Assembly: GCA_902622985.1 (NCBI GenBank)
Contig: CACNSH010000002.1
Location: 1-64,000, forward strand
Length of the DNA: 64,000 nt
Direction: 5' to 3'
From: an uncultured Pelagibacteraceae bacterium
GTDB taxonomy: Bacteria > Pseudomonadota > Alphaproteobacteria > Pelagibacterales > AG-422-B15
The notes under the pieces were generated by a model. That model had not been told where the DNA came from. It ran no database searches and was given only the letters and a program-made list of their open reading frames with translations. Position 1 is the first letter of the stretch, and every line of letters begins with the position of its first letter. The translations under genes were made by a program, and so were the position numbers. Of this stretch, positions 41,982 to 63,630 are shown piece after piece.

Positions 41982-41985
41982 GTAA

Positions 41986-43268: not shown

Positions 43269-43279
43269 TTTCTACTAAT

Positions 43280-44288: not shown

Positions 44289-44832
44289 TTATATATGTCT
44301 GCACAATATCATCTTCTTCAGGTCCAAACCTCGAACAACAATGTACCTTGTTTGTACCTTGGTCATAACCGCACCATGTTTCCCCTATTGTTGTGGAATT
44401 GTTAGCGTCTGGACAATCACTATTACCTCCTACCCCAGTTCCCTTATCATAACCGGGATTAAAAGGATTTGTAAAACCCATGACATCATAATTTCCTAAA
44501 AATCCCATAATATAATCAATGAGAAATCTCATTTTATTTGACTGATTGATCGAAGCTAGTCTTGCGCAATTCACATCTTCCAAATAAGAGTCGCCCTGTA
44601 TTTCACCTCTTTTCCATCTTTCATGAAAATCGATCTCACCACCATAATCACATTTTATGAATTCAGTTTGTATATACTTAACAACAGATTTATGATTTGA
44701 TTTTACAGTATTTATTTTTGAATTGTTTATAAATCCATTAAATGCAACAACTCCTACCGCAGCTAAAACACCTATGATTGCTACAACAACAAGAAGCTCT
44801 ATTAGAGTAAATCCTTTTGAATTACCAACCAT
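44275..44832 (-). CDS. Type IV pilin-like protein 3
   Basis: A 185-residue prepilin, the longest of the array: leader MVGNSKG, site G-FTLIELL, shared stem, then KYIQTEFIKCD, a Gly-rich DKGTGVGGNSDCPDANN loop, and GETWCGYDQG with CCSRFG near the end. Overlaps the preceding pilin by 11 nt. Confidence 0.9.
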   Translation of the reverse strand: MVGNSKGFTLIELLVVVAIIGVLAAVGVVAFNGFINNSKINTVKSNHKSVVKYIQTEFIKCDYGGEIDFHERWKRGEIQGDSYLEDVNCARLASINQSNKMRFLIDYIMGFLGNYDVMGFTNPFNPGYDKGTGVGGNSDCPDANNSTTIGETWCGYDQGTNKVHCCSRFGPEEDDIVQTYINDPF

Positions 44833-45256
44833 CTGACCAATTATTATTTTTAAATTTTCTTTTAATATTTGTATTTGTAATAGTTAAGTAATCACTTGAG
44901 TCTAAAGCGTATGCATTTGCCTGAAATGAAGAAGACGAACCATTTAAGTATTCAATACAAAAATTGTAATTTCTCTCAGATGTTTCATCTAATGTTTTAT
45001 CGTTAGAAAAAAGATTGGTATTTATTAAACTTGCATGGTTACTTGATGATCCACAGTTGGATGCAGATTGATAATAAGTACCATATAATGACCTGTATTC
45101 CTCTTGAGCTAAATATATTGAGCTTAATCCTGTAGTAGCTTGTTTTTCTTTTGCACTTCCAATAAATCCACCCAAAGCAACTACGCCTATTGCTGCAATA
45201 ATACCAAGGATTGCGACTGTTACTAAAAGTTCTATTAGTGAAAAGCCTTTATTCAT
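44822..45256 (-). CDS. Type IV pilin-like protein 2
   Basis: A 144-residue prepilin with a very short leader MNKG, site G-FSLIELL and a variant stem AILGIIAAIGVVALGGFIG. The head (TTGLSSIYLAQEEYRSLYGTYY) contains the alpha1-C and YRSLYGTYY stretch typical of pseudopilins and PilE-like minor pilins. It is the most divergent member of the array. Confidence 0.9.
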   Translation of the reverse strand: MNKGFSLIELLVTVAILGIIAAIGVVALGGFIGSAKEKQATTGLSSIYLAQEEYRSLYGTYYQSASNCGSSSNHASLINTNLFSNDKTLDETSERNYNFCIEYLNGSSSSFQANAYALDSSDYLTITNTNIKRKFKNNNWSDGW

Positions 45257-45268
45257 TCATATCCAACC

Positions 45269-45301
45269 ATTTCCTCTAGGGATTATCAATCTAGAGGAAA
45301 T
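45269..45301 (-). promoter_or_regulatory. Hairpin after the first pilin gene
   Basis: A perfect 11-bp stem (45269-45279 with 45291-45301) with an 11-nt loop lies in the 66-bp gap between the first pilin gene and the rest. No strong T-run follows. It probably lets the first, major-like pilin be made in excess of the later ones. Confidence 0.7.
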
Positions 45302-45322
45302 AGGTATCTTTATATTAGCAAG

Positions 45323-45796
45323 TTATTCTTTAGTAACAGAGTCTGTTAAAGCTGTTTCACCAGATGCAAACGTTGTTTTAATTGTACAAGTACCAGCAGC
45401 TCCTGAAGAGGTGTTGCAACTTATATAAGTATTTCCTTCAGTGCTTCCATCTCCTGATTGTACTCCATCTCCCTGAGTATAAGGATTTTTAAAACTTGAT
45501 TGATTCAAATGAACAATGATCTTTGCTTGATGATCAGCTGGCCCTGAACTACATGCCTCTGTAGTAGTTCCAGATGCTGTATCATACGTAAGATTAGTCT
45601 CACCCAAAGAGCATTTAGTAAACTCAGCCTGCAGATAGCTTACAACTGCTTTATGATTAGACTTTGTTGAATTTACTTTTGCATTTCCCAAAAAACCGCC
45701 AAAAGCAACTACACCAACCGCCGCTAATACGCCTATAATAGCGACAACAACTAGCAGCTCAATCAGTGTAAAACCATTTTTTTTATTTTTATTCAT
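45323..45796 (-). CDS. Type IV pilin, first of the array and probable major pilin
   Basis: A 157-residue prepilin: leader MNKNKKNG, site G-FTLIELL, stem AAVGVVAFGGFLGNAKVNSTKSN, and a Ser/Thr/Gly-rich head with cysteines in TKCSLG, EACSSG, ISCNTS and GTCTIK. It is first in the array, has its own 150-bp upstream region and a trailing hairpin, and is smaller than most of the others. All this suggests the major subunit, but direct evidence is lacking. Confidence 0.85.
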   Translation of the reverse strand: MNKNKKNGFTLIELLVVVAIIGVLAAVGVVAFGGFLGNAKVNSTKSNHKAVVSYLQAEFTKCSLGETNLTYDTASGTTTEACSSGPADHQAKIIVHLNQSSFKNPYTQGDGVQSGDGSTEGNTYISCNTSSGAAGTCTIKTTFASGETALTDSVTKE

Positions 45797-45947
45797 AGAA
45801 GATAACCCTTTATTTATATCATAAAGATTATGTTATGTTTGTTGGAAAATTATTACAATACTATTTTTTAAGAGTAAGTTATTGATAAACGCGGATTTTT
45901 TGCCATAATTCTGATTATTACATAAAAATCAATATAGAAGCTTATAA

Positions 45948-46184
45948 ATGCCAAATTTATTTTTTATAAATATTTTAATAACCTTTACGGTAATTTTTCT
46001 TCTAATTTATGTATCTACGCTACATTTATTTCCCAAAGAATGGCGTGAGAGAGTTAATTCAAATAAAAAATCATTTAACCCAAAATTCAATAATGACTCA
46101 ATCACTGGGATTGTAATAATTATATTATCTGCGGTAATGGTAATTTTATGGACAACTTATTTCTATATTGCTCTTTATTATTAA
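45948..46184 (+). CDS. Small two-span membrane protein, doubtful
   Basis: A 78-residue frame with two hydrophobic helices (INILITFTVIFLLIYVST, GIVIIILSAVMVILWTT) joined by a basic loop with KEWRERVNSNKK. No ribosome site is obvious. It lies between the divergent pilin promoter region and pilC and overlaps the end of pilC by 4 nt. Plausible as a small membrane protein, but no family supports it. Confidence 0.45.
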   Translation: MPNLFFINILITFTVIFLLIYVSTLHLFPKEWRERVNSNKKSFNPKFNNDSITGIVIIILSAVMVILWTTYFYIALYY

Positions 46185-47428
46185 CCAACAACTGATCCTG
46201 CATTAAAGATTGGCATATACATCGCAATTAAAAGAGTTCCAACTATAGCTCCTATAATTACCATTGATAAAGGCTCTATCATGGTAGATAAATTATCAAC
46301 TACATTATCAAATTCTTCCTCGTAGTAAGTTGCTATTGAAGTGAACATCTCTTCAAGGTTTCCTGTTTTTTCTCCAACTGCAATAAGTTGTGAATACGTG
46401 GGGGGAAATATTATTTCTTTCTCAACAAGTTTTGACATATCCTCACCAGAAAAAACACCTCTTTTTACTTGCTCTAATGCTGTAACAAAATGGACGTTAT
46501 TAGTAGATGATTTTGCAATATCTAGTATTTCAAGTACATCAACCCCGGCTGCAAATAAATTTGCTTTAATTAGTGCAATCCTAGCTATAGTTGCTTGTAT
46601 TATTATTTTTCCAAATAAAGGGAATTTTAAAATAAATTTATCCATGAAACTCTTATAGCTGTCACTTCTCTTAATTGTAAATGAATGAGCAAATACAATT
46701 ATCAAAATGATTACTAATGAAGTTATTCCACCAGAACCTGTAATAAATTTGTTTGCCCCAATTAGAAATAAAGTTGGACCAGGCAATTCAACTCCCATGC
46801 CACCATACATATTTTCAAAAACTGGTACAACCTTCCAAATCATAAATATCGTCACAAGTGTTGCAACAGATAAAATTATGGATGGGTACATTAATGCGCT
46901 TTTTATTTTAGATTTAATTTTTTCTCTTTTTTCCAGAATTCCAACTAATTTATCCAAGAAAATATCAAGTTTACCACTAGCTTCTCCAGCCTTTATCATA
47001 TTGACATAAATATTATCAAAAACTTTTGGATGCTTTTTAAAACTTCCTGCTATATCTGTACCTCCTTGCAAATCTTGGGTAATAGACTCTATTATTACTT
47101 TTAGCTTTTTATCATTCACTTGATTTTTTGCCATTTGAAGTGTGTCAAGGATGTTTAATCCAGCTCTTGTCATTGTCGAAAGTTTTTTTGTAAATAAAAC
47201 AATTTCTTTTGTTTTAATTGAACCAAAGTTTTCTAAAAAGGATAAAGATGAAGATTTGCTTTTATCTTGTACTTTCTTAGCCCTACCTTTAACTTCGTTT
47301 ATTGAGGTAATTATTATTTTTTTTTGCCGTAGACGATATGCAGCCTCATCTTCATTTATCGCCTCAATCACTCCATCAGCATATGTATTTTTCTCACCAG
47401 AAATTCCTTTATATTCAAATGAAGGCAT
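46181..47428 (-). CDS. pilC: Type IV pilus inner-membrane platform protein PilC
   Basis: A 415-residue GspF/PilC protein. The N-terminal PSFEYKG start is followed by two cytoplasmic helical domains, each with family motifs (FTKKLSTMTRAGLNILDTL; ANLFAAGVDVLEIL and SQLIAVGEKTGNLEEMF), and three membrane helices (MYPSIILSVATLVTIFMIW, SLVIILIIVF and PLSMVIIGAIVGTLLIAMY). It forms the rotary base with PilB. Starts 5 nt after pilB. Confidence 0.95.
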   Translation of the reverse strand: MPSFEYKGISGEKNTYADGVIEAINEDEAAYRLRQKKIIITSINEVKGRAKKVQDKSKSSSLSFLENFGSIKTKEIVLFTKKLSTMTRAGLNILDTLQMAKNQVNDKKLKVIIESITQDLQGGTDIAGSFKKHPKVFDNIYVNMIKAGEASGKLDIFLDKLVGILEKREKIKSKIKSALMYPSIILSVATLVTIFMIWKVVPVFENMYGGMGVELPGPTLFLIGANKFITGSGGITSLVIILIIVFAHSFTIKRSDSYKSFMDKFILKFPLFGKIIIQATIARIALIKANLFAAGVDVLEILDIAKSSTNNVHFVTALEQVKRGVFSGEDMSKLVEKEIIFPPTYSQLIAVGEKTGNLEEMFTSIATYYEEEFDNVVDNLSTMIEPLSMVIIGAIVGTLLIAMYMPIFNAGSVVG

Positions 47429-47433
47429 ATTTA

Positions 47434-49143
47434 TTAACCGACAAACAACGTTCTTTGATATTCATCAAATGATAGTTCCCCATTTTTTAAATAATCTGCT
47501 CCAACTTCTTGCATAGGTCTATAACCTTCCTTTTTTGCAATGGCCATTATCTCAGGGGCTGTCATATTTTTGAGAATTGCATCCTGAATACTTGGAGTAA
47601 TTTTTAATACTTCATATATACCCCTTCTTCCCTTAAAGCCTGTGTTATTGCATTTAGAACAACCCTTACCTTTTTGAAGTATAATTTTACCTTTTATCCC
47701 CAGTTGTGAGAGTGTATCAGGTTTAATACTACTGTCCTTAGTTTTACAGTTATCACATGTCTTTCTGGCTAATCTTTGAGCTATTACAAGCGAGACTGAA
47801 GATGATACTAAATAGTTAGGTATACCCATATTTACTAGCCTAGTTATCGTATTTACTGAGTCATTTGTATGCAATGTGCTTAGAACCAAGTGTCCAGTTA
47901 AAGCTGCTTCAACAGCTATATTTCCAGTTTCTTGATCTCTAATCTCACCAACTAAAATAATTTCTGGATCCTGTCTTAAAAATGTTCTTAAAGCTGAAGC
48001 AAAGGTAAAATTAATTTCATTTTTCATTTGTGATTGACTGATACCTTCAAGTTCATACTCAATTGGATCCTCTGCGGTCATAATATTTTTCTTTTCATCA
48101 TTTAGTTTATTTAGAACAGAATAAAGGGTTGTTGTTTTGCCGCTACCAGTAGGTCCAGTCACAAGAATTAGTCCTTGGGTTGCATAGATCGCTTCTTTTA
48201 TTTTTTGAAAATCTACTTTTGAAAAACCTAATGTTTCTAAATCAAGCTGGATAGCATCTTTTCTTAAAATTCTCATAACAACTCGCTCTGACAGCCCTTG
48301 TACAGGTAAAAATGATACACGAAGATCAAATTCAATATCTCCATTATTAAATTTAATTGCCCCATCTTGTGGTAAGCGCTTTTCTTCAATTCTGGCACCA
48401 GAACGCAGCTTTAAAATTGAAACAACTGCCAAATAACGTTCATTTATTTCATCTTGTCTTTTCTTTTGATTAACAAGTATGCCGTCAATTCGATACCTTA
48501 ATCTTTTCGACTTCCTAAATGATTCAATATGAATATCACTTGCTCCTTTTTTATATGCCTCTGTTAGTATGTCTGTAACAAATATTTCAGCCGCAGTTTT
48601 ATCTCTCTCAGTGATTTGTTCAACCTCAGCTTCTGACTCTTCAATTTCTTTAACTTCTTTTAAAGTTCCAAGCACTCCAACTTCTTGTGACAACGATGAA
48701 ATTCCATATTTTTCGAGCAGTTTTTCAAAATTACTTACCGTTACTAACACCATTTCAATATTCATACCTGTTATCACTCTTATATTTTTTTCAAGTGGTA
48801 ATTTAGATTGATCACATATAGCTACTTTCAAAGTTGAACCATCTGTTTCGAAAGGACAAACATTATTTATTCGCAGGTATTCAGTGGTTAATTTTGACTG
48901 AGCTTCAGAAGAAATTTGTTCTGGGTCAACTTCTTGAAAATTTAATCCATAACTTTCAGCAACAAACCTAGCAAGTGAGAACTCATCCATTACTGCTCTT
49001 TCAAACATAATGGACACTATTGATTGTCCTGATTCTTGATTAAGAACTTTTAATTTATTAAAATTATCCTCAGAGAGAATTCCTTTAGAGACTGCCATAT
49101 CAGCAAGCTCTATTGCACTATCATCGTTAATAAACTTGCTCAT
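47434..49143 (-). CDS. pilB: Type IV pilus assembly ATPase PilB
   Basis: A 569-residue extension ATPase. An MshEN-type N-domain (about 1-160) comes first, followed by the ATPase core with Walker A GPTGSGKTTTLYSVL, Asp box TAEDPIEYE, Walker B IILVGEIRDQETG, His box TGHLVLSTLHTND and a zinc-binding tetracysteine (CDNCKT and CSKCNNTG). The full complement of motifs indicates an active assembly motor. In GspE/PilB nomenclature the T4P context favours PilB. Confidence 0.95.
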   Translation of the reverse strand: MSKFINDDSAIELADMAVSKGILSEDNFNKLKVLNQESGQSIVSIMFERAVMDEFSLARFVAESYGLNFQEVDPEQISSEAQSKLTTEYLRINNVCPFETDGSTLKVAICDQSKLPLEKNIRVITGMNIEMVLVTVSNFEKLLEKYGISSLSQEVGVLGTLKEVKEIEESEAEVEQITERDKTAAEIFVTDILTEAYKKGASDIHIESFRKSKRLRYRIDGILVNQKKRQDEINERYLAVVSILKLRSGARIEEKRLPQDGAIKFNNGDIEFDLRVSFLPVQGLSERVVMRILRKDAIQLDLETLGFSKVDFQKIKEAIYATQGLILVTGPTGSGKTTTLYSVLNKLNDEKKNIMTAEDPIEYELEGISQSQMKNEINFTFASALRTFLRQDPEIILVGEIRDQETGNIAVEAALTGHLVLSTLHTNDSVNTITRLVNMGIPNYLVSSSVSLVIAQRLARKTCDNCKTKDSSIKPDTLSQLGIKGKIILQKGKGCSKCNNTGFKGRRGIYEVLKITPSIQDAILKNMTAPEIMAIAKKEGYRPMQEVGADYLKNGELSFDEYQRTLFVG

Positions 49144-49146
49144 CAG

Positions 49147-50724
49147 TTATAAAATTTTGGGTGCTATAAAAATAAACACTCTATTAAAAATATCCTTATC
49201 ACCTTGCATTTTAAATAAACTGCCAAATACTGGTATGTCTCCTAAACCAGGTGTTTTTGAAGTTGAATCTGAAATTGTATCTTGAAAAATTCCACCAATA
49301 ATAACTATGGATTCATTTGCAACTAACAATTTTGTATTTACCGCGGTTTTACTGATTGGGGGATTAGAAGTTGTTGCGTCTGTAACAGAGTCATTATTAA
49401 CAGAAATATCAAGTATTATGTTGCCGTCTCCTATAACACTTGGAGTCACCTCTAATGTTAATGCTGCATCTTTAAACTGTGTTTGAGTTCCACTAGACGA
49501 TGCAGAGGTATAAGGTATTTGTACACCCTGTGTGATTTTGGCAGTTTGATTGTCTAGCGTAAAAACTTTTGGATTCGCAATGACTTTAGAAATTGAATCT
49601 GCTTCCATTGCTTGTAATTCAAGATTAAGGTCAATTTTAGATGCATCCAAAATCATGCCAATACTTCCTGTTGCAGATGAAATTGTATTTTCTGCCATAG
49701 TTCCTGCTGACTGCGTACCGACCGTTCCAAGCGTAGTAACGCCCGATGTAGTTGTTGAAGGTCCACCAATAGTTCCTCCGGCACTAAATTGACCACCACT
49801 TGCAATATTTGTTTCGTTTGGACCATAATACATCCCAAGCCTAGTACCAAGATTCTTCTCAAAACTATCTGTTACAGTGACAACAAATGCTTCGATTAAA
49901 ATTTGCTTAGTTGGTATATCAATTTCGTTTACCAATTTTTCTATAAAATCAAGATCGTCTTTTCCACCAAGCACAATCAATGCTCTTAAGCGAGTATCTA
50001 CAGTTATCTTAACTCTGTCACTGGCACCTGAACTAGATATTGCAGAACCCTCCCCTGCAGCTGCTGTTGCATCCATGTTTGACAATACATCTTCAATTTG
50101 TGATTTTACTGTTGCAGGTTCACTGTAATATAATTTAAATATTTCTGATCTCACTGGTTCAATAGATTTACTTAACTCCATTGCCTGTCTTACTTCTGCT
50201 TTTCTTTTCCTATTATACTCCTCTTGTGCAGATATGACCTCTTTGGTATGTATTCTAACTATATTTGTATTTGGACTTAGCGTTAAAGCTATATTTTTCA
50301 TTTCAAGAATTGCTTCAAGCACATCATCCCAATCTTCATTTAAAATTCTTGCTTTAACATTTCCCTGCACTTCATCACCTACTAAAATATTTTTGCCAGT
50401 AACAATCGAAAATGTTTGCATAACAGACCTGATATCCACATTGTCAAAGTTTACTGAAATTGGAAAAGTCTCAGCAAAATTTTTACTAATAATTTTAGTG
50501 TAATCTGTAACCATATTTTCATCGATATAGATTCTTCGCTCACCGATGATATTGCGTTTGTCTTGTGACTTCGGTCCTAGCTCTGCGGTTTCATTAATTA
50601 TCGCGGTCTGTTGATCAGCAAAATCTTTTGGGTCAAAAGGTTTTTTTTCAACTTGTGATGTTGCGCAACCAAATAAAAATATGAACAAAAAAACAAATGC
50701 GGAACTCAATTTTACTTTATACAT
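49147..50724 (-). CDS. pilQ: Type IV pilus secretin PilQ (MshL-like)
   Basis: A 525-residue outer-membrane secretin made as a lipoprotein (FLFGC-ATSQ). An STN/N0-like domain (about 85-150, VNFDNVDIRSVMQTFSIVTGKNILV), an N1-type domain, then the secretin core (ILIEAFVVTVTDSFEKNLGTRLG ... VIANPKVFTLDNQTAKITQG ... TLEVTPSVIGDGNI). It lacks AMIN domains, so it resembles MshL more than Pseudomonas PilQ. Forms the pilus exit pore. Lies between pilP and pilB. Confidence 0.92.
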   Translation of the reverse strand: MYKVKLSSAFVFLFIFLFGCATSQVEKKPFDPKDFADQQTAIINETAELGPKSQDKRNIIGERRIYIDENMVTDYTKIISKNFAETFPISVNFDNVDIRSVMQTFSIVTGKNILVGDEVQGNVKARILNEDWDDVLEAILEMKNIALTLSPNTNIVRIHTKEVISAQEEYNRKRKAEVRQAMELSKSIEPVRSEIFKLYYSEPATVKSQIEDVLSNMDATAAAGEGSAISSSGASDRVKITVDTRLRALIVLGGKDDLDFIEKLVNEIDIPTKQILIEAFVVTVTDSFEKNLGTRLGMYYGPNETNIASGGQFSAGGTIGGPSTTTSGVTTLGTVGTQSAGTMAENTISSATGSIGMILDASKIDLNLELQAMEADSISKVIANPKVFTLDNQTAKITQGVQIPYTSASSSGTQTQFKDAALTLEVTPSVIGDGNIILDISVNNDSVTDATTSNPPISKTAVNTKLLVANESIVIIGGIFQDTISDSTSKTPGLGDIPVFGSLFKMQGDKDIFNRVFIFIAPKIL

Positions 50725-50727
50725 AAC

Positions 50728-51138
50728 TTACATTCCAGATAGATTTGTTGCCAGTAAAGGATTAGAAACTGAAATAGTTATTTCCTCATCAGATGAATTT
50801 TTTCCAACAATTATATAATCTTGGTCTATAGATTTAATTGTGTGTAAATCATTACCGATTGGATCACCTGGAAACATAATATAATCTTTACCTCCCGGTA
50901 TACTCATCACAGCTATAGATCCTTCGAGGGAAACAATAACACCTTTAACAAAGTATTTTGCTACATCATATTTCATCATAGGGTGAACCGCATCAGAACC
51001 ATCGTCGGTTAACGTTAAATCACCCGTTACCGTAGAAGGAGTTGAAAAACTTCTTGAAAACGGATCTTCAGCATAAGCAAAGTTTAGGAAAGATATTAAG
51101 ACAGATAAAACTATTAAAATTTTTATTTTCATAATCAA
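50728..51138 (-). CDS. pilP: PilP-like pilus assembly protein
   Basis: A 136-residue protein. The leader (VLISFLNFAYA-ED) looks like a signal peptide, not a clear lipobox. The C-terminal beta domain has the PilP pattern VKGVIVSLEGSIAVMSIPGGKDYIMFPGDPIG and IKSIDQDYIIVGK. PilP links the PilN-PilO complex to the secretin. Start overlaps pilO by 4 nt. Confidence 0.78.
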   Translation of the reverse strand: MIMKIKILIVLSVLISFLNFAYAEDPFSRSFSTPSTVTGDLTLTDDGSDAVHPMMKYDVAKYFVKGVIVSLEGSIAVMSIPGGKDYIMFPGDPIGNDLHTIKSIDQDYIIVGKNSSDEEITISVSNPLLATNLSGM

Positions 51139-51914
51139 TTCATTTCTCTATTTTTTACTAATGAAACCGTTGCAGTTGCTTTAATTAACCCACTTATATT
51201 TTCATTCTTTTTAATTTCTTCGTTTTCTATGTTAACAATTTTAGGCTTATTTGCTATTATATTTCTAAAGTTAACATAATTTGTAAAACCTCCTTCTATT
51301 TCATAAGAAACACTCATTTTGTAGTAAGCAATAGGTTTACATTCATCTCCTTGACAATTTGGGTCTGGTTGAAATGATTGCGAGTTATTGACCATGTTTT
51401 CGTATTGTGAATTTTGTTCACAAGGTATGGTGGAGCCAATTGGTGTATAAGTATATGATGAATTATTCATATCATTTTCATCCAATCTTATAGCTATCTC
51501 GTCACCTCTAGTTATATTAATTATTTTTAGACCGTTACGAATTGTAGCTTCTGTTAATTCAGCATAAAAATTTTCAAACTCATCGTCACTAACAAATAAA
51601 ACACCTTTTGTTGAGCTTTCTGTTTTTAGATTTTCTATACTTTTATTTAGATTCTTGATTTCATCAATGCAGCTGTTAATTTGGGTGTTCCACGTTTCTA
51701 CTTGTTTTAGTCTATTTTGCTGTTCATTTAATGTGGGTTTTATATAAAAAAAGTATATGGCTAATAATATTATTATTAGGACTGAGGCATAAATAATACG
51801 CATTATAACAGTTTTATCTAAACCTATTGTTTTATTTTCTTTTGATTTATTTGGTTTGTTCTTATTTTTACGTGAGAATAAATCTTTGATATCCATTTGT
51901 AATAATGAAGCCAT
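51135..51914 (-). CDS. pilO: PilO-like pilus alignment protein
   Basis: A 259-residue single-span inner-membrane protein. After about 35 cytosolic residues comes a span (IIYASVLIIILLAIYFFYI), a coiled coil (NRLKQVETWNTQINSCIDEI) and a ferredoxin-like periplasmic domain with strand motif ISGLIKATATVSLV at the end. PilO pairs with PilN. Three cysteines in a SFQPDPNCQGDECKP loop are unusual and may form a disulfide. Confidence 0.8.
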   Translation of the reverse strand: MASLLQMDIKDLFSRKNKNKPNKSKENKTIGLDKTVIMRIIYASVLIIILLAIYFFYIKPTLNEQQNRLKQVETWNTQINSCIDEIKNLNKSIENLKTESSTKGVLFVSDDEFENFYAELTEATIRNGLKIINITRGDEIAIRLDENDMNNSSYTYTPIGSTIPCEQNSQYENMVNNSQSFQPDPNCQGDECKPIAYYKMSVSYEIEGGFTNYVNFRNIIANKPKIVNIENEEIKKNENISGLIKATATVSLVKNREMN

Positions 51915-51917
51915 CTA

Positions 51918-53699
51918 TCAATCCTCCTCTGATAATCTTTCAAGATTTTTTTGCATCATAAATTCGTTTTTAACATTAATCTTTATGATAAATGATTTTA
52001 TGTTTGATCCATCATTAGCAATAAATGATTTTTCTAGAATTACAGAGTCAAATATCTCAATTTCTCTTATTCTTGTTATATAGTTTATTACATCACTATC
52101 AGAAAGCGCTTCGCCCTCTATAGAGTATGTAACAAGACCATCAAATTTTATTGAAGATAGTGCTATATTAGTCCCAGCTCTTTCTGCTAACTCAACAAGC
52201 GCCTTAGCTGCGGTACTTTGATTTGTTGTGGCTGTTTCAGATAACTTCAAGCTATCAATTAGTGTTTTATTTTCATTTTTAAGTTTAATCATTCTAAGCT
52301 GTAAATCAGTCAATTGACTTTCAATTTGTGTGTAATCAGACAAACTTTTATTGTTTTTAGATGATTGAGATATAAAATTATAACCTACTGCTAATGATGA
52401 AATTAGCATTATTGCGACAATAGCGGCTAGAGCTATTCCAGAAAATAGCTTAGTTCTCTGAGATTTTCTGACACCCTCTCTGTTTGGAAGAAGGTTGATA
52501 TTATTAACGCCTGTTACTTTTTGATAATAACCAAAAATATCTAACTTTCTTGTAGCTAAACCAGTTACTGCAGTGAAAGATGAATTGTTAGCTTCAGCCG
52601 CTAACTTTTCAGAAATTTGTTGTGGAACGCTCATTGTATTAAATGGATCAAGGACTACAATTGTCATGTTTTTAAATTTTTTTGAAAAAGATTCAGAAAT
52701 ATTATTTATATTTGGAGAATTTGATACGAGAAATAGGTTCTCTATAGGCTCGGACTTAAACCTTGATGCATAAGAATCTAAATTTTGCTTTATCTGCATA
52801 ACAAATCGATCGATTATTGGTGAAAGTGACTTTACGTCATTATTTTCTAATCCAATTGTAGTTTTGTCTTTGGAGCTAACAAATATATCGCTTACAAAAG
52901 GAATCTCATCTTTTAAAATAAGTAAAAAATTTTCATGCGCACCAATCTCAAGTATTGCCAGAGGCGCCTTTGTCATGTTTTTTATATTTTTTGTCTCAAA
53001 GGCATTTCTTAAAGCGAAACATCTTACATCCATGACAATTGGACTCATCTGAGCATTTTTGACGATCTCTATATATTGATTTACATCTGATAATTTAGAG
53101 GCGACAAAAAGAACATCCATTAAATTTTGTGCTGAATCTTTCCTTATAACTTGGTGAAAAATTGAATATTCTTCAAGTGCATCTGGTAGCTGGGTAAGAT
53201 TTTCCCATAACGAGTCATATTCAATTGCTTTTTGCATTTCTGCTTCAGTCATCAAGGGCATTGTTATTACCTTAACGATTGAGCTTGAAACAGGCAGAGA
53301 TACCGCTGCGTTGTTAGTTGAAAATTTTCCTGATTTAAAAGCTATTTCAATTTCTTCAGAAATTTTAGCTGCGCTAGTTTTAATATCTTCTATGCGATCC
53401 AAGTGTCTATATGCTAACTTTTCAACAGTCCACTTATCATCTTTTTTTGATAATTGAGCTAATTTAATTGAGTAAGGAGTAATATCAATGCCAACTACTT
53501 CTTCTTGTTGAACAGAGTATTCACTAAGCATTGAGATGACTGAATTTGAAAACTTTGATAGTAAGCCAGAAGAGGGACTTAATTTATCAGAATTTGGTTT
53601 ATTCTTTTTTTTAAAATTCAGCTTTAAGTTAGCTGAACTAAATAAATTTTTTAGCTTTTCACCAACATCTACATTTAGTCCTGACGGTTTACCTGTCAT
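51918..53699 (-). CDS. pilM: PilM-PilN fusion protein
   Basis: A 593-residue fusion. Residues about 66-390 are PilM, an actin-like ATP-binding protein (VVGIDITPYSIKLAQL; AILEIGAHENFLLI; TGLATRKLDIF). Residues 398-593 are PilN, beginning with VNNINLLPNRE, the segment PilN uses to bind PilM, then a membrane span at 418-440, a coiled coil and a ferredoxin-like domain. Normally these are two adjacent genes. A basic, low-complexity N-terminal region (1-60) precedes PilM. The fused product would lock the cytosolic ring to the membrane alignment complex. Confidence 0.88.
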   Translation of the reverse strand: MTGKPSGLNVDVGEKLKNLFSSANLKLNFKKKNKPNSDKLSPSSGLLSKFSNSVISMLSEYSVQQEEVVGIDITPYSIKLAQLSKKDDKWTVEKLAYRHLDRIEDIKTSAAKISEEIEIAFKSGKFSTNNAAVSLPVSSSIVKVITMPLMTEAEMQKAIEYDSLWENLTQLPDALEEYSIFHQVIRKDSAQNLMDVLFVASKLSDVNQYIEIVKNAQMSPIVMDVRCFALRNAFETKNIKNMTKAPLAILEIGAHENFLLILKDEIPFVSDIFVSSKDKTTIGLENNDVKSLSPIIDRFVMQIKQNLDSYASRFKSEPIENLFLVSNSPNINNISESFSKKFKNMTIVVLDPFNTMSVPQQISEKLAAEANNSSFTAVTGLATRKLDIFGYYQKVTGVNNINLLPNREGVRKSQRTKLFSGIALAAIVAIMLISSLAVGYNFISQSSKNNKSLSDYTQIESQLTDLQLRMIKLKNENKTLIDSLKLSETATTNQSTAAKALVELAERAGTNIALSSIKFDGLVTYSIEGEALSDSDVINYITRIREIEIFDSVILEKSFIANDGSNIKSFIIKINVKNEFMMQKNLERLSEED

Positions 53700-53806
53700 C
53701 TAAATTAATTCCTTAAAAAGCATTAATATATATATAATATTAAATAGTTTTTAACCTTCGTTAACAATGTTAAATTTAGTGTATAATTGATGATATTTTT
53801 AAGTTT
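53700..53806. promoter_or_regulatory. Divergent promoter region between pilMN and pilT
   Basis: 107 bp. A TATAAT at 53782-53787 is preceded by the perfect 13-base palindrome TTAACAATGTTAA (53761-53773), a possible operator. The region must drive pilMNOPQBC leftward and pilT with the minor pilins rightward. Confidence 0.4.
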
Positions 53807-54808
53807 ATGGATAAAATTATATTAAAATTGGCTGAAATTTCTGGGATATCAGATATTCATCTTTCTGCAAACAAAGCGATATCGATTAGAGTAAATGGAT
53901 TAATCGATAAAAAAGATGAAAAAATCATTAAAAATGAAGAAATTGAGAAATTTATTCAAAAAATATTAAGTAAAGAATTAATCGAAAAACTGAAAATTGA
54001 AAAGAGTATTGATTTTAGTCTCAGTCTTGAAAAATATAGATTTAGAGGAAACGCATATTATTCTCATGACGGCATGAATCTTGTTTTAAGGAAACTAGGA
54101 AGAAATATTATGAGATTTGATGATGTAGGTTTTCCACCAGTAATATCAAATCTTATTGAAAATGAAAATGGTTTAATATTGGTTACTGGACAAACTGGTT
54201 CTGGCAAATCCACAAGCCTTGCTGCAATAATTGATTACCTGAATGAAAATTTTTACAAAAAAATAATTACATTAGAAGATCCCATTGAATTTTTACATGA
54301 TGAAAAAAATTCTATAATTTCACAAAGACAAATTGGTGATCATGCAAAAACTTATTCTTCTGCATTAAAAGCCACATTAAGGGAAGACCCAGATGTAATC
54401 TTAGTTGGTGAGCTGAGAGACTTAGAAACCATACAACTTGCTCTAACTGCTGCTGAAACAGGTCATCTGGTGTTAGCAACATTGCATACAAGTGGTGCCC
54501 CTAATACAATTAATAGAATTATTGATGTGTTTCCAGGTGATCAGCAATCTCAGATAAGGGCTCAATTAGCTTTATCGCTTAAAGGGGTTATTACTCAAAA
54601 ACTATTGCTTAAGGAAAGTGGAAACGGTCGAGTGCCTGCATTTGAAATTATGATAAGCAATCCAGCTATTCAAAACTTAATTCGTGAAGATAAGATTTTT
54701 CAGATTCCAACAATAATGCAAACAGGTTCATCTGAAGGAATGATACTCATGGATAAATATATAGAGAACCTAAAAACAGATGGCATCATCAGTTATGATA
54801 TCAACTAA
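53807..54808 (+). CDS. pilT: Pilus retraction ATPase PilT
   Basis: A 333-residue hexameric ATPase that disassembles pili. Features are Walker A GQTGSGKSTSLAA, Asp box LEDPIEF, Walker B VILVGELRDLETI, His box TGHLVLATLHTSGAPNT and the PilT-type C-terminal motif NPAIQNLIRE (AIRNLIRE in P. aeruginosa). It is shorter than PilB with no N-terminal MshEN domain, as expected. First gene of the plus-strand minor-pilin operon. Confidence 0.95.
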   Translation: MDKIILKLAEISGISDIHLSANKAISIRVNGLIDKKDEKIIKNEEIEKFIQKILSKELIEKLKIEKSIDFSLSLEKYRFRGNAYYSHDGMNLVLRKLGRNIMRFDDVGFPPVISNLIENENGLILVTGQTGSGKSTSLAAIIDYLNENFYKKIITLEDPIEFLHDEKNSIISQRQIGDHAKTYSSALKATLREDPDVILVGELRDLETIQLALTAAETGHLVLATLHTSGAPNTINRIIDVFPGDQQSQIRAQLALSLKGVITQKLLLKESGNGRVPAFEIMISNPAIQNLIREDKIFQIPTIMQTGSSEGMILMDKYIENLKTDGIISYDIN

Positions 54809-55397
54809 TTATGCAGAAAAAGGTCTAACTCTACTAGAAATTCTTGTTGTCCTTGCAATCATAGGAATTGTTGCTGCAATCAGTGTTCCAAATATTTCCG
54901 GATGGACATCCTCAAGAACAATAAATAATGATTTGGGAGAATTAACCAAATTAATTGACTATGCCAAAGTGAATAGTATTAAAAAAAAGAAAAAATTTTT
55001 GCTGGTCAATGATAATAACAGCAAATCCTTAAATCTATATCAAAGTAAAAATGTTGACACCTCAACAAACTGTACATCCTATAACTCTTCAACATTTGAA
55101 TATGCATCTGGTTATGAAGCTTCTCAAAAAGTCACTTCAAATATCTTAGCTCAAAGGGGAGTCTCGAGAGGATACACAGACCCCTCAACAGAACTTTGTT
55201 TTTTTTCAGATGGCACTGTTTCAGCTAATACAACTGGTTATGAAATAAGCTACAGAGATAGAAGTTATCGATTATCGGTTTGGATTACTGGTTTTTATGA
55301 AGTGCTTAGATATTCTGAAGTTTCTTGTCCTGCAGAAAAGAGAGCATATGACAGAGATAACAATATTATTCAAAATTGGTGTGAGGTAAGTCAATGA
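54780..55397 (+). CDS. fimT: FimT/GspH-type minor pilin
   Basis: A 205-residue prepilin. Leader ends with AEKG, site G-LTLLEILVV, stem IIGIVAAISVPNISGW. The following ELTKLIDYAKVNSIKKKKKF matches the FimT/GspH N-terminal region. FimT-type pilins prime pilus assembly and in some bacteria bind DNA; the KKKKKF patch is basic. Two starts are possible (54780 or 54795), both inside the end of pilT. Confidence 0.88.
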   Translation: MASSVMISTNYAEKGLTLLEILVVLAIIGIVAAISVPNISGWTSSRTINNDLGELTKLIDYAKVNSIKKKKKFLLVNDNNSKSLNLYQSKNVDTSTNCTSYNSSTFEYASGYEASQKVTSNILAQRGVSRGYTDPSTELCFFSDGTVSANTTGYEISYRDRSYRLSVWITGFYEVLRYSEVSCPAEKRAYDRDNNIIQNWCEVSQ

Positions 55398-55876
55398 ACA
55401 AGCAAGCTGGAGTTAGTTTGATTGAAGCCATGGTAGCAGCAGTTGTCGTAGGAATTGGTTTTGTTGCTATTTATGGAATTACAACTTCCTCCACAAGAGT
55501 GTTGTTGAATTCTATAGATCGCGAGAAAGGAAATATGATAGCTAATATGATTATGGAAGACATCGTTATTGATGTAGAAAACATAACTCAATACCACAAT
55601 ATAAATTTTTCCTCCTCACCATTAAGTCAAACGAATTCTGTAGAAAAAAAACATGAGAAATGGAAAAGTGCTGCAGATAAGATGTTTGATCAAGTTCAAA
55701 GCGGATCAACTGAGTGCTCCGGCGGTAATCCTAAAGAATGGAAAAATTGTCATTATAGAAAAGTTGAGGTTGTTGAAACCTCAAGTGGCAGTAAAGTTTA
55801 TACAATTTCAGTTCACCTTTCTAACAGAGAAGGAAGAGCAGTTAATACATTTAAAAGGACAATCAATGCAGAGTGA
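55394..55876 (+). CDS. pilV: PilV-type minor pilin
   Basis: A 160-residue prepilin with leader MNKQAG, site G-VSLIEAMVA (Val at position 1, Glu5 present) and a stem GIGFVAIYGITTSSTRV that matches PilV/PilI. It starts within the fimT stop (ATGA). The head has a cysteine pair (TECSGG, KNCHYR) and a Ser/Gly region. Confidence 0.85.
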   Translation: MNKQAGVSLIEAMVAAVVVGIGFVAIYGITTSSTRVLLNSIDREKGNMIANMIMEDIVIDVENITQYHNINFSSSPLSQTNSVEKKHEKWKSAADKMFDQVQSGSTECSGGNPKEWKNCHYRKVEVVETSSGSKVYTISVHLSNREGRAVNTFKRTINAE

Positions 55877-57359
55877 AAAAGGATTCAGCTTAGTTGAAAT
55901 GATGATTACATTGGCCATCAGCGCCATCATCATAGGAGCCGCTTTTGGCTCATATACAATTATCTCAAGAAATTTTGAGTGGCAAAAAGATATGAAATAT
56001 ATTTCACAATCTGCAAGAAATGTTATTGAAATGATACAAAAAGATATCCGAAATGCAGGATTTCGTTTTGAAGCTAATGCATCCATTGCAGATCCAGTTA
56101 AAATCTACGATGCAGGAGATTGCTGTGATCGAATTGAAATTATTTATGACGAAACAATTAATAAAAGAGTAAAAATTGAATACAAGCTTCAACAATACTC
56201 AAGCGACAATACTCGTTTTCGTCTTTATAAAAAGAAAACAAATCTTTCAAATAATAATACAGTTGAATTTGATACACCTATTGCAGATTACATAGAAGCA
56301 CTTAAATTTACGGGGTCAAGAGGCAATTGTACTGATGGTGATGTGAAAAAAGGATGTGGTATTGAACAATTGGTTACCCCCTCCTCAGCTAGATACGTAA
56401 CTCTACATGGCAGAAACAATAATACTTGTTCTGATGATATATTAAAAATATTTGATGGTGATCCAACTACATTTTGGTCATGTACTAGAGATAGCGGTGA
56501 ATACGATACCAACAATACAAATTATTTGCTCCTTACATTCCCTGTAGAATTTAGACCAACGAAAGTCATTACAAACGGTAGTTTATCCGGAGTTAATGGT
56601 GGAAGCTTCGATCTAACTCAAGGTGAGAATTTTGCTAGGGGTGTTTGCGCGTACAATAGTTGCTTTACAAATACAACACACCCTTGGGGCACTTCTTATC
56701 CAACAAATCTTAACACTTCATTTGCATTCATACGGGCCGGAACCTCCCCATCTGCAGTTTCAGATCAGATCCACACTGAGGGTGGATGGAGATGTATTGC
56801 TAATCCTGTAATTGAGAACTTCTTTAGTAGTTCATGGCACCCGCCTGGTGTAAGAAACTGTGGAGATAATAACTATTATTATGGAAATTTGAATTACAAT
56901 CAAAACATAAGTAGTGGTCCCTCTATAAGAATTAACCCCGTAACTTCTCAAACTATTAAATTTACAGGTGATGGTAGCGCAGGTCATTCACTTGATCTCA
57001 GCTATTCAAAATATTTAACTATAAGAATTGATAGTGAAGGTGACCGGTGTGCCTACAGTTCAGCTGATGAAGCATGGGAGAGCAGGTATCACAGAGAAGG
57101 AGTATGCAATATTACATGGCAAAATGATTATATTGCAATGTCAGATATGGCAATTTATGGTGAGGTCTTTACCGGCACTATCTCTCCACAAGAAGTAAAA
57201 GTTGAATTATTACAAAGAAGCCCCAGAGAACATGGTAATACAGATAGAAATTTTTCTACAACAATTGGTAATTTTTCAATAAATGTAAATGATAAATTTC
57301 TAAGAGATAATTATTTGACCTCAGCAACTATGAGGAATGTTTATTACCAATCACCATGA
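55866..57359 (+). CDS. pilW: PilW-type minor pilin with discoidin-like insert
   Basis: A 497-residue prepilin, much larger than ordinary PilW. Residues 1-150 are PilW: site G-FSLVEMMITLAISAIIIGAAFG and SARNVIEMIQKDIRNAGF. Residues about 170-435 look like an F5/8 type C (discoidin) carbohydrate- or lipid-binding module (IFDGDPTTFWSC, LLLTFPVEFRPTKV, IAMSDMAIYG). Residues 440-497 return to a PilW-like tail. The insert has about ten cysteines. The start at 55866 overlaps pilV by 11 nt. Likely a tip adhesin; the module call is by eye. Confidence 0.8.
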   Translation: MQSEKGFSLVEMMITLAISAIIIGAAFGSYTIISRNFEWQKDMKYISQSARNVIEMIQKDIRNAGFRFEANASIADPVKIYDAGDCCDRIEIIYDETINKRVKIEYKLQQYSSDNTRFRLYKKKTNLSNNNTVEFDTPIADYIEALKFTGSRGNCTDGDVKKGCGIEQLVTPSSARYVTLHGRNNNTCSDDILKIFDGDPTTFWSCTRDSGEYDTNNTNYLLLTFPVEFRPTKVITNGSLSGVNGGSFDLTQGENFARGVCAYNSCFTNTTHPWGTSYPTNLNTSFAFIRAGTSPSAVSDQIHTEGGWRCIANPVIENFFSSSWHPPGVRNCGDNNYYYGNLNYNQNISSGPSIRINPVTSQTIKFTGDGSAGHSLDLSYSKYLTIRIDSEGDRCAYSSADEAWESRYHREGVCNITWQNDYIAMSDMAIYGEVFTGTISPQEVKVELLQRSPREHGNTDRNFSTTIGNFSINVNDKFLRDNYLTSATMRNVYYQSP

Positions 57360-57562
57360 TTAAACTCTTTAGAAAAAACATATTTTTTAGATTTACAATT
57401 TATATAATAATAATTCTTAGTTTTATTTACTTTAACTTATCTACCTATGATATTTATATATTAAGTCGAAATCCAATGGTATTTTTTAGAACAAATTGGT
57501 TTGAAATTGTAACAATTTCACTTTTATTTGCAATTTACTACAAAGTGTCTGCTAAAAAATGA
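57356..57562 (+). CDS. Small two-span membrane protein, unknown
   Basis: A 68-residue protein with two membrane helices (FFRFTIYIIIILSFIYFNL and EIVTISLLFAIYYKV). Its ATG overlaps the pilW stop (ATGA). Not recognised; translational coupling suggests a role in the minor pilin operon. The small size makes this moderate confidence. Confidence 0.55.
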   Translation: MIKLFRKNIFFRFTIYIIIILSFIYFNLSTYDIYILSRNPMVFFRTNWFEIVTISLLFAIYYKVSAKK

Positions 57563-57598
57563 TAGACTTTTTAATGATTTATTAAATCTTATAAAAGA

Positions 57599-58198
57599 AT
57601 GAATAAAAGATATATTGTTAATAATAAAGAGCAAGGGTTCGCACTCGTTGTTTCATTATTGCTACTAGTGATTACAACACTGATGGCCTCTCTTTTAGTC
57701 ATCAACGCTGCCAATCAATCCAAACTCACAAAAGACTCTACTGATAAATTCCAAACATTTCTAAGTGCTGAAACCGGTATTGAAGATGCACTAAATTACA
57801 TAAAAACAGAAGCTGCAGCAGGTCGTTATCCAATTAATGGAAGTTCTTCTATTAACCAAATTTGTGAGTCTCCCATGAGCGTTACATTAGAGGAGTCATA
57901 TCAAGTAGTTGATCTACCAACTGATACTAAAGACCTTCATACTGTTATGAACCTTTCAAGTGCTGGTTTAGGTGATTGGCAAAATGAATATAGAAATGAA
58001 AAATTTAATTATATCATAAGCAATATTGGTGGTGGAACTAGTGGAGGGACCGGCTCAGGAAGTGATGTGGGAGTTGGATCAAATTACAGCAGTGTTGGAG
58101 CTGGGATGACATATAAATACAGAATATTTTCTTGTGGTGTAGATGCTAATGAAAATAAAATTACTGTGATAGAGGTAATTGCATCATTAGACCTATGA
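57599..58198 (+). CDS. pilX: PilX-type minor pilin
   Basis: A 199-residue prepilin with leader NKEQG, site G-FALVVSLLLLVITTLMASLLVI (no Glu5, as typical of PilX) and SKLTKDSTDKFQTFLSAETGIEDALNYI matching the PilX N-terminal region. A Gly-rich loop (NIGGGTSGGTGSGSDVG) lies near residue 150. The stop overlaps the next start (ATGA). Confidence 0.85.
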   Translation: MNKRYIVNNKEQGFALVVSLLLLVITTLMASLLVINAANQSKLTKDSTDKFQTFLSAETGIEDALNYIKTEAAAGRYPINGSSSINQICESPMSVTLEESYQVVDLPTDTKDLHTVMNLSSAGLGDWQNEYRNEKFNYIISNIGGGTSGGTGSGSDVGVGSNYSSVGAGMTYKYRIFSCGVDANENKITVIEVIASLDL

Positions 58199-58713
58199 AA
58201 TATCTAATTAAATTATTTTTCTGTATACTTATTTTCAATATTCCAGTTCTTGCAGACTGTAACTTTGAACGTTTAAGTCTTGGAACAGGTTCTGAAATGG
58301 TTAAATCAGTTTACAATATTGATATCCAACAAGATAAAGAAAATTTTAGCTTATCTTCATCCTCACCAAAAGGTGTTAAGGGGCATAAAATATGTGATGA
58401 CAATAAATATGATGATTTAAATTTTAGATTTTTCTTTATAGATCATACATTACAACTAATCAGTATCATTGATAACAATTCGGAGATCAATCACTTTGAG
58501 AATCTCGTTAATTTTTATGGAAACCCTACTTACCAAAGAATTACTAAAAATATAGATGGGATTGATGATCACCATTGGGCATTTTCAGATAAGGATGTCT
58601 TCCTTCAAATTATAAAACAAAACGAAGAAATAATAAGCAATATAAAAATTATTAATAAAAATTATGTATCGAAGCTTAATGGTTTTGAGGGCGATGATGA
58701 TGTATTGCACTAA
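58195..58713 (+). CDS. Secreted protein between pilX and pilY1, unknown
   Basis: A 172-residue protein with a signal peptide (MKYLIKLFFCILIFNIPVLA-DC). The mature part has a beta-rich appearance with EMVKSVYNIDIQQ and HHWAFSDKDVFLQII. No family is recognised. It starts at the pilX stop and its end overlaps pilY1, so it is probably a periplasmic partner of the minor pilin complex. Confidence 0.65.
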   Translation: MKYLIKLFFCILIFNIPVLADCNFERLSLGTGSEMVKSVYNIDIQQDKENFSLSSSSPKGVKGHKICDDNKYDDLNFRFFFIDHTLQLISIIDNNSEINHFENLVNFYGNPTYQRITKNIDGIDDHHWAFSDKDVFLQIIKQNEEIISNIKIINKNYVSKLNGFEGDDDVLH

Positions 58714-61700
58714 TATCAAATCAGTTATTAGACTAACATTTTTTATTATTTTACTCTACGCTGGTACGGCTTCGTCTAAATCACTTCCACCCGGTACAGG
58801 TCAAGCGGATGTTAAGGCCAATATTTTGATTATGTTAGACACCTCTGGAAGCATGAGTGCTGCTGTACCATTTACGCCAATTACGATATCAGGACCAAAT
58901 GATTCCGATGTTGACTCAAATGGAAACGTTCATACGATTAATTGGAATGGTGGCTTTATATCTGTCCACAATTACCTTGGTACCCCTGTAACGACATACG
59001 GTCAAGGTGGTTCTTCAGGATATAGAGCTTCAAAAATAGCGATTGACTCAGATGACAATGTCTACGGCAAAAATACTAGCACACTCGTCAAATGGAAAAA
59101 AACAGGGATTAACACTTGGACAGAGGACTGGGTGGTTGAAATTAACAATTCTAATGGTTGTGGAAATGGTGATGATGATTCTGATATTGAAATATATGAT
59201 AGAACTAATCAAATTTATATTACTGATAGAGAAACTAATAAAACGTGTATTTATAGTACAGCTGGTACATTTATAGGATCTAGATCAACATCCCCTACTC
59301 ACAATTACCCATATGCAATAGATAGTAATAACGGTGTCGCGTATCACTTTACAAGTGATAGTACGTTAAAAGTTGACTACATAGACACCACAAGAACTCC
59401 TGAAGGCACTGGGACAGGTGAGTCAGCTTATCTTGGTAATATTGTTACACCTCCAGACTTTGTTTATTGGAGCAAGGTCAACGACATAGAAATTGACAAA
59501 AGAGGCGATATTTATATTGCCGACAGAACAGGAGGGAAAATCCACAAGTTTTCTGCATTTAATACACCTGGTGGAGGTTTGCAGCACATTGGAACATATA
59601 CGTGTACTGGGCTATCATCCGGTCTTTTTGGAGTATATGGGTTTGGTATTGATCATGTGAATGATGTTCTTTGGGGAGCGGATTATGAAGGTGGGCAGAT
59701 TGTTAAAGCGTCCATTGGAGCTGGAAATACGTGGACATGTGACAGCGCTGTCGGAAGCCCCACATCAAAATCAAGAATGCAAGTTGCAACAGACGTAATT
59801 AAAGTTCTGATGCAAGACTCGTCTCTAACAGATGGAGCAAATTTTGGACTTTTAAATTGGTCATGGTCTGACTGGCAATTGAGAAATTATAATATTTTTA
59901 GTGGCTTCCCGTATAATCTTCAGGGGCCTTACCCTCAAAACAAAGCCAATACTTTAAAAGCGCCTATTTCTCCAACTGGCGCCCAAGAAATACTATCATC
60001 CATACCCAACACATTAACTAGAGGCTATTATCCTTCATACTCAGAAGCTGGTGACTGTACTTTTCCATGCTCAGGTGGAACATACATAGACGATGCTCTA
60101 AATATTGCAAAAGATTATTTTAATGGCAATTTTGCTGGACACCCTTCACCTATTGATCCAAATGCTTCATGTCAAAATAATTATATAATAGTAATAAGTG
60201 ATGGAGCATTTAATGGTACTGACCCATCTAATACCACACTTCAGTTGTATCAAGACCTTGGAATTAAAACTTATATGGTTGGATTTGCCTTAACCGATGA
60301 CCCAGGAACAGCAGCTGATGAACTTGCAATTGCCCAATCTAACTGGTCTAAAATTGCAACTAATGGTCAAACTGAAACAGTTTTATATGCGGACAATGAA
60401 GTAGCATTAATCAATGTTTTAAGAGATGCAATTCGCCAAGCAGTCTCATTACCTTTAACCTTTTCATCACCTCAGATTTTACCAGATATAAATCTTGGAG
60501 ACAGTATTTACCAATCGGTTTTTGAATTTGAAAACAAGAAACAATGGAAAGGTCATTTAAAAAAATACAAAATGGACAACTCTGGAAATATAATTGAACC
60601 AGAAGAATGGGATGCTGGTACACTTTTGAATAATGTTAGACATTTCTCCAGAAATGTATGGACAGTTTTTCCAAACATGTCCTCAAGTGATATTAATAAC
60701 TTTACAACTTCAAACATTGGAGCATTCAAAGCCGAAATGTATTTAAATTCTGCTATTCCTCTGCAGCATGGTATTGGAACAGAACCTTATAACATTGTTG
60801 AATTTACAAGAGGTGGTGATGCCTTTGATTATGATGCTGATGGTGATCTTGTAGAGGATCGCAATTGGAAACTAGCTGATATATTTCACTCAGAGCCTGC
60901 TCTTGTTTCTGTACCACCTGACGCTATTTCATCTGCAGTAAGTAATTCTGATGATTACTATCGACACCAAAAAAATTATAAAAACTTTAAAGAGATACAA
61001 TCAAATAGAAAAGCGATTGTTTTAGCAGGATCAAATGCAGGAATGCTGCATGCATTTGATGTTTTAAGCGGCGAAGAATTATGGGCTTTTATTCCTCCAT
61101 CTATGTTGTCCAATTTAAGAAATGTTATTTCTTCAAATGCAAATCAAACTAATTCTATTTATGGAGTTGACGGAAGCCCTTTGGTAAAAGATATTTTTAT
61201 AAACGGAGAATGGAAAACAATTGTAATAACTGGGTTAGGTAAAGGTGGGAAATCATACTTTGTATTAGATATAACTGATACACAAAATCCGGAACACATG
61301 TTTACTGTAATGAATGATCCAGTAAGACAAAAAGTTTATCACTGGAATTCAAATGGATTTAAAACAATTTACGACTATACAGGAGGCTCTATTGATGAAA
61401 ATTATGACTATAGAAAATTGGGTGAAGCATGGTCAACGCCAAGGGTTTTAAGATTAAAAATAAATGGCAACGATAAGTGGGCTGCGGTCTTTGGAGCGGG
61501 TTACAATAATAATGTAACTTCATCATATGGATCAGCTGTTTTTGTAATTGATCTTGAGGAAGAAGGAAAAGTCCTTCAGGTCATTGATATCGAGGATAAA
61601 GATGATCCAAATGATTCAACAAATTATGTGATTAATTCTGTACCAGCTTCGTTAACTCCGATAATTCCAGAAAACACTTCAATAGCTAATTACTCTGGTG

Positions 61701-63250: not shown

Positions 63251-63630
63251 CTGTACTTACCAGGACTTACCGAGGATAAAATTAATAAGCCTGCGATAAT
63301 ACCTGTATTTTTTACAAAATTTTGAAGTTCGTGTCTTTGCTCCAAACCTTCGCTCATATTCCAAAAATCATGCATATAATAATTAATTAGTATTGTGAGT
63401 AGCGCTAATACAAATGCGGAGGCCTTAGAATAATAGCCGAGTAAAATTGAAATTGAACATACACCTTGTAAAATTATTGTTATTATTAGAGATATTTCTG
63501 TATACGGCACTTGATGATCAAACATATAATTAAGAGTAAATTCATAATTAAATAATTTAAGCATTGCTCCAAAAAATAAAAAATAAATTCCAATTATTAT
63601 TCTTCCTAAAAGTAAATTTACATTACTCAT
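63235..63630 (-). CDS. DoxX-family membrane protein
   Basis: A 131-residue protein with four hydrophobic spans and the DoxX pattern LLLGRIIIGIYFLFFGAML at the start, ILQGVCSISILLGYYSKASAF in the middle and NTGIIAGLLILSS near the end. DoxX proteins are membrane-associated and some are linked to quinone or oxidative-stress functions. It starts one base beyond the stop of the upstream gene. Confidence 0.72.
   Translation of the reverse strand: MSNVNLLLGRIIIGIYFLFFGAMLKLFNYEFTLNYMFDHQVPYTEISLIITIILQGVCSISILLGYYSKASAFVLALLTILINYYMHDFWNMSEGLEQRHELQNFVKNTGIIAGLLILSSVSPGKYSWKNL

Follow-up and report, generated by a model that had tools for sequence, protein, structure and literature searches.

We analysed a 64,000-nucleotide stretch of an uncultured Pelagibacteraceae genome (the window), in which an open reading frame on the minus strand encodes PilM and PilN as one protein within a type IVa pilus gene cluster. 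The gene, its parts and its neighbours are as follows, with strand in brackets.

51918..53699 (-), PilM-PilN fusion gene, 593 aa, ATG start, without internal stop
52545..53507 (-), PilM actin-like domain, aa 65-385 (TIGR01175, PilM_2, AlphaFold domain compared with 2ych)
52710..52730 (-), degenerate adenosine motif LVSNSPN, aa 324-330 (alignment; S326 N327 replace the GG of separate PilMs)
52500..52538 (-), linker, aa 388-400, joining RKLD at the end of PilM to the PilN motif (alignment)
52476..52499 (-), INLLPNRE, PilM-binding motif of PilN, aa 401-408 (sequence)
52380..52448 (-), predicted transmembrane segment, about aa 418-440 (hydropathy)
51975..52196 (-), PilN periplasmic domain, aa 502-575 (PF05137)
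51135..51914 (-), PilO (PF04350, 22.3 bits, just over the cut-off of 22)
50728..51138 (-), PilP-like small protein (by position only)
49147..50724 (-), PilQ secretin (TIGR02515, 326.1 bits, cut-off 284.35)
47434..49143 (-), PilB-type extension ATPase with MshEN domain (T2SSE and MshEN)
46181..47428 (-), PilC platform protein (PF00482, T2SSF)
53807..54808 (+), PilT/PilU family ATPase (TIGR01420, 423.9 bits, cut-off 319.1)
58664-62458, PilY1-like protein, 1264 aa, in the island (PilY1 domain 70.5 bits)
62459..63250 (-), PilD prepilin peptidase (PF06750 and PF01478)
42764..63274, type IVa pilus island of about 20.5 kb (flanks joined in three genus-mates)

The Pfam profile PilM_2 matched the fusion protein with 112.9 bits against a cut-off of 27 (best stretch aa 70-265), and the Pfam PilN profile matched the same chain with 26.5 bits against 22.8. 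With both profiles over cut-off on one 593-aa chain, the fusion is confirmed as genuine and as lying in one reading frame, as an earlier note made from the sequence had proposed. The NCBIfam PilM model TIGR01175 scored 119.2 bits, under its cut-off of 133, which marks the PilM part as a diverged PilM. We also confirmed that the join falls exactly at the segment by which PilN binds PilM. RKLD, close to the end point of separate PilMs, is followed after 13 residues by INLLPNRE and then by one transmembrane segment (hydropathy peak 2.45 over 19 residues starting at aa 418), the arrangement of a PilN, except that the motif is internal, PilM being upstream of it. The crystallized chimera 5eou (PilM-PilN1-12) mimics this join, and in a sequence search of the PDB the alignment with it ran on through the PilN motif.

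PilB, PilC, PilO, PilQ, PilT and PilD occur together with pilins in one system, as in type IVa machines, and the presence of both a PilB-type ATPase and PilT in the cluster means that both motors are encoded. TIGR02538 was the best model for the PilB-type ATPase at 536.5 bits, under its cut-off of 675.65. The PilP-like protein had no Pfam match at E 0.1, and the GspC model gave 12.5 bits. Six tandem pilin genes (42774-45796) share a near-identical N-terminal helix and have quite different C-terminal parts; they could be alternative major pilins.

ATP site, linker and predicted fold of the fused protein

ATP-site residues were compared by aligning 25 fused PilMs with 18 separate ones, to which we added 80 named fused relatives drawn partly from the same genomes; the motif names are those of the actin/Hsp70 family. 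The GG of the adenosine motif was present in all separate PilMs (18/18) and in none of the fused proteins (0/25, and 0/80 of the named set). Aspartate occupied the second phosphate position in 11/18 separate, 0/25 fused and 0/80 named proteins, while the lysine of the first phosphate loop, which by position we take to be Thermus Lys26 (K26), was found in 17/18, 5/25 and 14/80, respectively. Loss of the adenosine motif from the fused PilM domain, as read from these alignments, is established and is new, and the sequences show that in this lineage the ATP site itself is degenerate.

The window protein has changed less at this site than most fused proteins. It keeps D72, K79 and G253 and has S326-N327 in place of GG, and so departs from the set of actin/Hsp70-type ATP-binding motifs. 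On this comparison we would claim it as PilM-derived and not as an ATP-binding PilM. The retention of K79 and D72 makes weak nucleotide binding possible, and these residues together with G253 are what favours the alternative that ATP is still bound and used by fused PilM through altered motifs. We regard that alternative as unlikely, given the replaced adenosine GG and the fused rows at large, of which 18/25 lack D at position 72 and 20/25 lack K at position 79.

How far ATP-site loss may be ascribed to fusion is limited by the comparison itself, since the fused proteins are alphaproteobacterial and the separate ones come from other classes, such that both traits are confounded with lineage. 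Fusion and loss would form one phylogenetic event with no independent replicate, and causality is unproven. The second phosphate aspartate is also absent from 7/18 separate PilMs. By eye, Escherichia coli HofM, which is separate from HofN, has no first phosphate motif, so that loss of the ATP site does not depend on fusion; a GEGG stretch makes its adenosine motif ambiguous. E. coli GspL, a one-chain analogue, has no such ATP motifs by eye.

Of 27 fused proteins that had been found by other means than the docking motif, 19 retain it in the form NINLLP[ND]R and 8 have a drifted version, and tight docking may therefore not be general. In another alignment of 27 rows, some of whose relatives had been retrieved through the motif, the linker FGYY..VT.V.N was among the most conserved stretches and equalled the motif in conservation, a sign of a specific contact. 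Linker conservation also bears on the possibility that the chain is made as one and then cut in the linker to give ordinary separate PilM and PilN. Low AlphaFold confidence for this region could mean an exposed loop, yet a dispensable loop would not be expected to be so highly conserved, and we consider processing of this kind quite improbable.

Structure prediction, which the earlier note had named as a check, supported the PilM fold and did not fix the position of the linker and motif. AlphaFold gave a pLDDT of 75.2 and a pTM of 0.57 for the full length and 80.4 and 0.80 for a trimmed form, with linker and motif at pLDDT <50 in both; the models do not place the INLLP motif with confidence, and it may or may not dock in cis. 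In structural alignments with 5eou_B, the trimmed model ended at 349 against 366, by count the same place in both motifs, and the full model at 402 against 366, four residues off; for motif docking, these end points of predicted structures are a hint only.

The predicted domain showed the PilM-type actin-like fold, with Z 30.0, rmsd 3.2 and 310 aligned residues against 2ych, Z 29.6, rmsd 3.5 and 323 residues against 5eou, and Z 28.8, rmsd 3.3 and 314 residues against 3jc8; FtsA came next after the PilM structures at Z of about 24. In this aligner 5eou and 2ych were tied, and the PilM structures spanned Z 26.7-30.0. In Foldseek, 5eou was the top match (E 9.4e-25) and GspL structures ranked far lower (1yf5, 7.4e-8; 4pht, 2.0e-7). 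These matches count against the protein being GspL of a type II secretion system and not a pilus protein, a reading suggested by the shared order of actin-like domain, transmembrane segment and ferredoxin-like domain and by the degenerate ATP site. Because PilM structures matched best and the window protein had no T2SSL match at E 0.1, we rejected it as very improbable; the cluster moreover holds PilQ and PilT over their cut-offs and many pilins.

Distribution of fused and separate forms

We searched 247 genomes of the order, which going by its named relatives is SAR11, with the PilN profile (E up to 0.01). Matches were found in 75 genomes, one each and one of them under the family cut-off, all in frames of 542-853 aa, and single-contig genomes were among the 75; a separate PilN gene of about 200 aa was found by this profile in none of the 247. 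Conservation of the fusion in the order is thus established, and the observation by which the earlier note would have withdrawn its reading, separate PilM and PilN genes in close relatives, was not made (0/75 PilN matches in a short frame). At least 74 genomes of the order had matches to the first part of the PilM profile, in frames of the same lengths. Frames of 344-450 aa that matched only the middle of that profile were set aside, by length and range, as presumably FtsA/MreB-like; the PilN search of the order covers the question they raise.

Among named relatives, PilM and PilN shared one open reading frame in 80/80 loci, these being the best 80 of 330, found and ranked with the fused protein as query and hence biased towards fusion. 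Most named relatives were titled Pelagibacteraceae, Pelagibacterales or Candidatus Pelagibacter, with a few Alphaproteobacteria and one Rhodospirillaceae. A sequencing or assembly artefact joining two neighbouring genes, which a draft genome of 17 contigs and the absence of a fusion match from 42/43 genomes of the genus might suggest, was rejected as virtually excluded by the fused-length frames of all 75 PilN matches in the order, single-contig genomes included, by the conserved residues at the junction and by the 80 fused loci kept from the 330.

Across 337 genomes of the class there were 45 PilN matches in 42 genomes and no frame <345 aa, a length that in GC-rich genomes is by itself no proof of fusion. 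By profile, long two-domain fusions occurred beyond the order in L039 (genome G269), L040 (G400, cut by the contig end), L052 (G457, 551 aa) and L054 (G395, 550 aa). Among the matches listed for 299 genomes of the phylum, most PilN frames were of about 200 aa. We fetched 19 loci of this phylum from outside the class and dropped one (L036) in which PilM was cut off; PilM and PilN were separate in 18/18 with both genes readable. Seven long frames from outside the class (L020-L026) were considered as fusions and rejected, all seven being, once fetched, chance frames over a separate PilM gene.

When 19 fused and 18 separate pairs were placed in one tree, those that are fused made up one side of a single branch with support 100/100, present in 100% of 200 bootstrap trees; the tree is unrooted, two fused rows are long-branched and several rows are of odd composition. 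Since the fused rows are Alphaproteobacteria and the separate rows belong to other classes, the simplest reading of these sequences would be a single fusion event in an alphaproteobacterial lineage.

Several variants were observed alongside. Five loci (L014-L018) carry a divergent type of fused PilMN with a drifted INLLP motif and, in those that were scored, 21-22% identity to the window protein; a protein of 400-427 aa comes directly after it. In another alphaproteobacterial family, L047 encodes a compact 375-aa protein with PilM and PilN matches and a weak T2SSL match; L048-L051 resemble it and match the PilM/PilN profiles weakly, and L053, L055, L057 and L058 had no match to those profiles. 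Many Pelagibacter fusions, including L007, L011, L012 and L013, have an extra N-terminal part that contains some 60 residues of conserved sequence (GRLHIYVRQDKYKGELKSKNWVGRLYIDGKQ...), which by a loose pattern occurs in 44/80 named relatives and which in L012 had no Pfam match at E 0.1. A tblastn search of phage records gave no match.

Within the genus, a match to the fusion was absent from 42/43 genomes, many of them incomplete, the window genome alone being positive. Among the 53 genomes of the family, one more (G066) had a long copy, with 55% identity across residues 38-587, and another had a 94-aa fragment. Stretches of five genus-mates were fetched for the island flanks, taken as 41971 to 42763 or 42664 and 63274/63275 to 64000. 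In three (G059, G025 and G001) the two flanks lay next to each other, separated by 34, 134 and 135 bases; the stretches of the other two (G061 and G021) contained neither flank and stop 2.2 and 4.1 kb past the last match. The rarity of the fusion in genus and family, together with the joined flanks, identifies the pilus with fused PilMN as an accessory island here. No tRNA was found in the window. Contamination of the contig was considered because 42/43 genomes of the genus had no match, and was rejected on the joined flanks and on a contig neighbour 22 kb away, a 709-aa protein, presumably polyphosphate kinase, that was matched in 17 others of these 43 genomes (98-99% identity in 16, two of them partial, and 90% in one).

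A probable stator subunit in one chain and its known counterparts

We consider it likely that this protein is a natural single-chain PilMN that serves as an inner-membrane stator subunit of the type IVa pilus, with an ATP-independent socket and a single origin. PilM is covalently linked to PilN immediately ahead of INLLP, the motif by which PilN docks into PilM. Each PilN thus has its own PilM, with stoichiometry fixed at 1:1, and the idea that fusion fixes the PilM-PilN complex holds in this sense, by covalent join. The PilM domain would no longer bind ATP and may be a passive socket that receives the N-terminal domains of PilB, perhaps those of PilT too, as GspL holds GspE. The fusion would have arisen once, in an alphaproteobacterial lineage, and decay of the ATP site may have become tolerable as association no longer depended on ATP.

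Work on separate proteins frames this reading. Passages of a review describe PilB as docking in a socket made by PilM (PMC11656802). In Thermus thermophilus, according to sections of PMC6325625, PilM boosts the activity of the motor PilF only if bound to PilN, and bound ATP amounts to 0.89 per PilM and 0.77 per PilMN. The same sections report that the K26A mutant of PilM does not bind ATP; it nevertheless co-purified with PilN, and its stimulation of PilF was like that of the wild type (PMC6325625). Because K26A still forms PilMN, association of PilM with PilN needs no ATP. Covalent linkage would keep PilMN permanently in the stimulating state, and this would fit with loss of the ATP site. The earlier note had supposed that fusion may remove a nucleotide-dependent exchange of PilM. 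That idea is supported only in part and not as worded, as we found no report of such exchange in the open-access literature and K26A binds PilN without ATP; what the alignments reveal in its place is the degenerate ATP site of the fused proteins.

Like GspL of type II secretion, the fused protein is probably a stator subunit that is fixed and independent of ATP, and this part of the pilus motor mount seems to stay assembled for good, with no switching by ATP. A bolder proposal, which we think doubtful, is a self-locking stator ring in which the conserved linker hands the INLLP motif to the groove of a neighbouring PilM, in a domain-swapped arrangement that needs no ATP. If such a ring existed, the motor socket of the SAR11 pilus would never disassemble and control of extension and retraction would lie wholly at PilB and PilT.

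Coupling works without ATP in the Thermus mutant, which by our reading raises the question of why PilM binds ATP. A very abundant marine lineage that has kept the pilus machine, with PilM tied to PilN and no ATP motif, is a natural experiment on that question, and it suggests that ATP serves association or the conformation of free PilM and not a power stroke. The fusion also offers a ready-made single-chain construct for structural work.

Two components of the pilus machine that well-studied relatives make separately are a single protein in SAR11. Compared with type IVa PilM and PilN of Pseudomonas aeruginosa, T. thermophilus and Myxococcus xanthus, the window protein shares the domains, INLLPxRE, the PilM fold and adjoining PilO and PilQ, and differs in being one chain and not two, in the lost adenosine motif and in the conserved 13-residue linker. 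The P. aeruginosa chimera 5eou joins the C-terminus of PilM to the PilN motif as here; unlike the natural fusion it was made for crystallography, includes nothing of PilN beyond residues 1-12 and has 6 residues from RSFD to INLLP against 13 from RKLD to INLLP, and its structure was determined with ATP. The Amuc_1101 family PilM-like protein (NCBIfam NF045709, 608 positions) has a length that suggests PilM plus more and is a lead only, as we met it solely as a 14-bit match of the PilO protein of the window.

An adhesin gene of SAR11 adjoins genes for type IV pili and/or type II secretion according to an excerpt of PMC12636525, a paper that does not use the word PilM. Among the papers listed by our searches of the open-access literature, none reported a PilM-PilN fusion in SAR11 or Alphaproteobacteria, or fusion combined with ATP-site loss. 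PilM-PilN fusion as such is already known. PilM and PilN of Clostridioides difficile are described as fused in part of PMC6916266, and the name PilMN appears in part of PMC6143707; we liken this protein to ours by description only, as it belongs to a monoderm whose motif is unlike that of diderms, monoderm PilN having a C-terminal RD(MILF)N(FYW)FS motif in the same portion of PMC6916266. PulL/GspL is viewed as a PilM-PilN fusion in a passage of PMC10191384. GspL combines actin-like, transmembrane and ferredoxin-like parts in one chain as the fusion does, and differs in its Pfam families, weaker structural match and secretion context, with E. coli GspL shorter at 387 aa. A type IVa pilus protein with GspL architecture is a link between the platforms of the pilus and of type II secretion.
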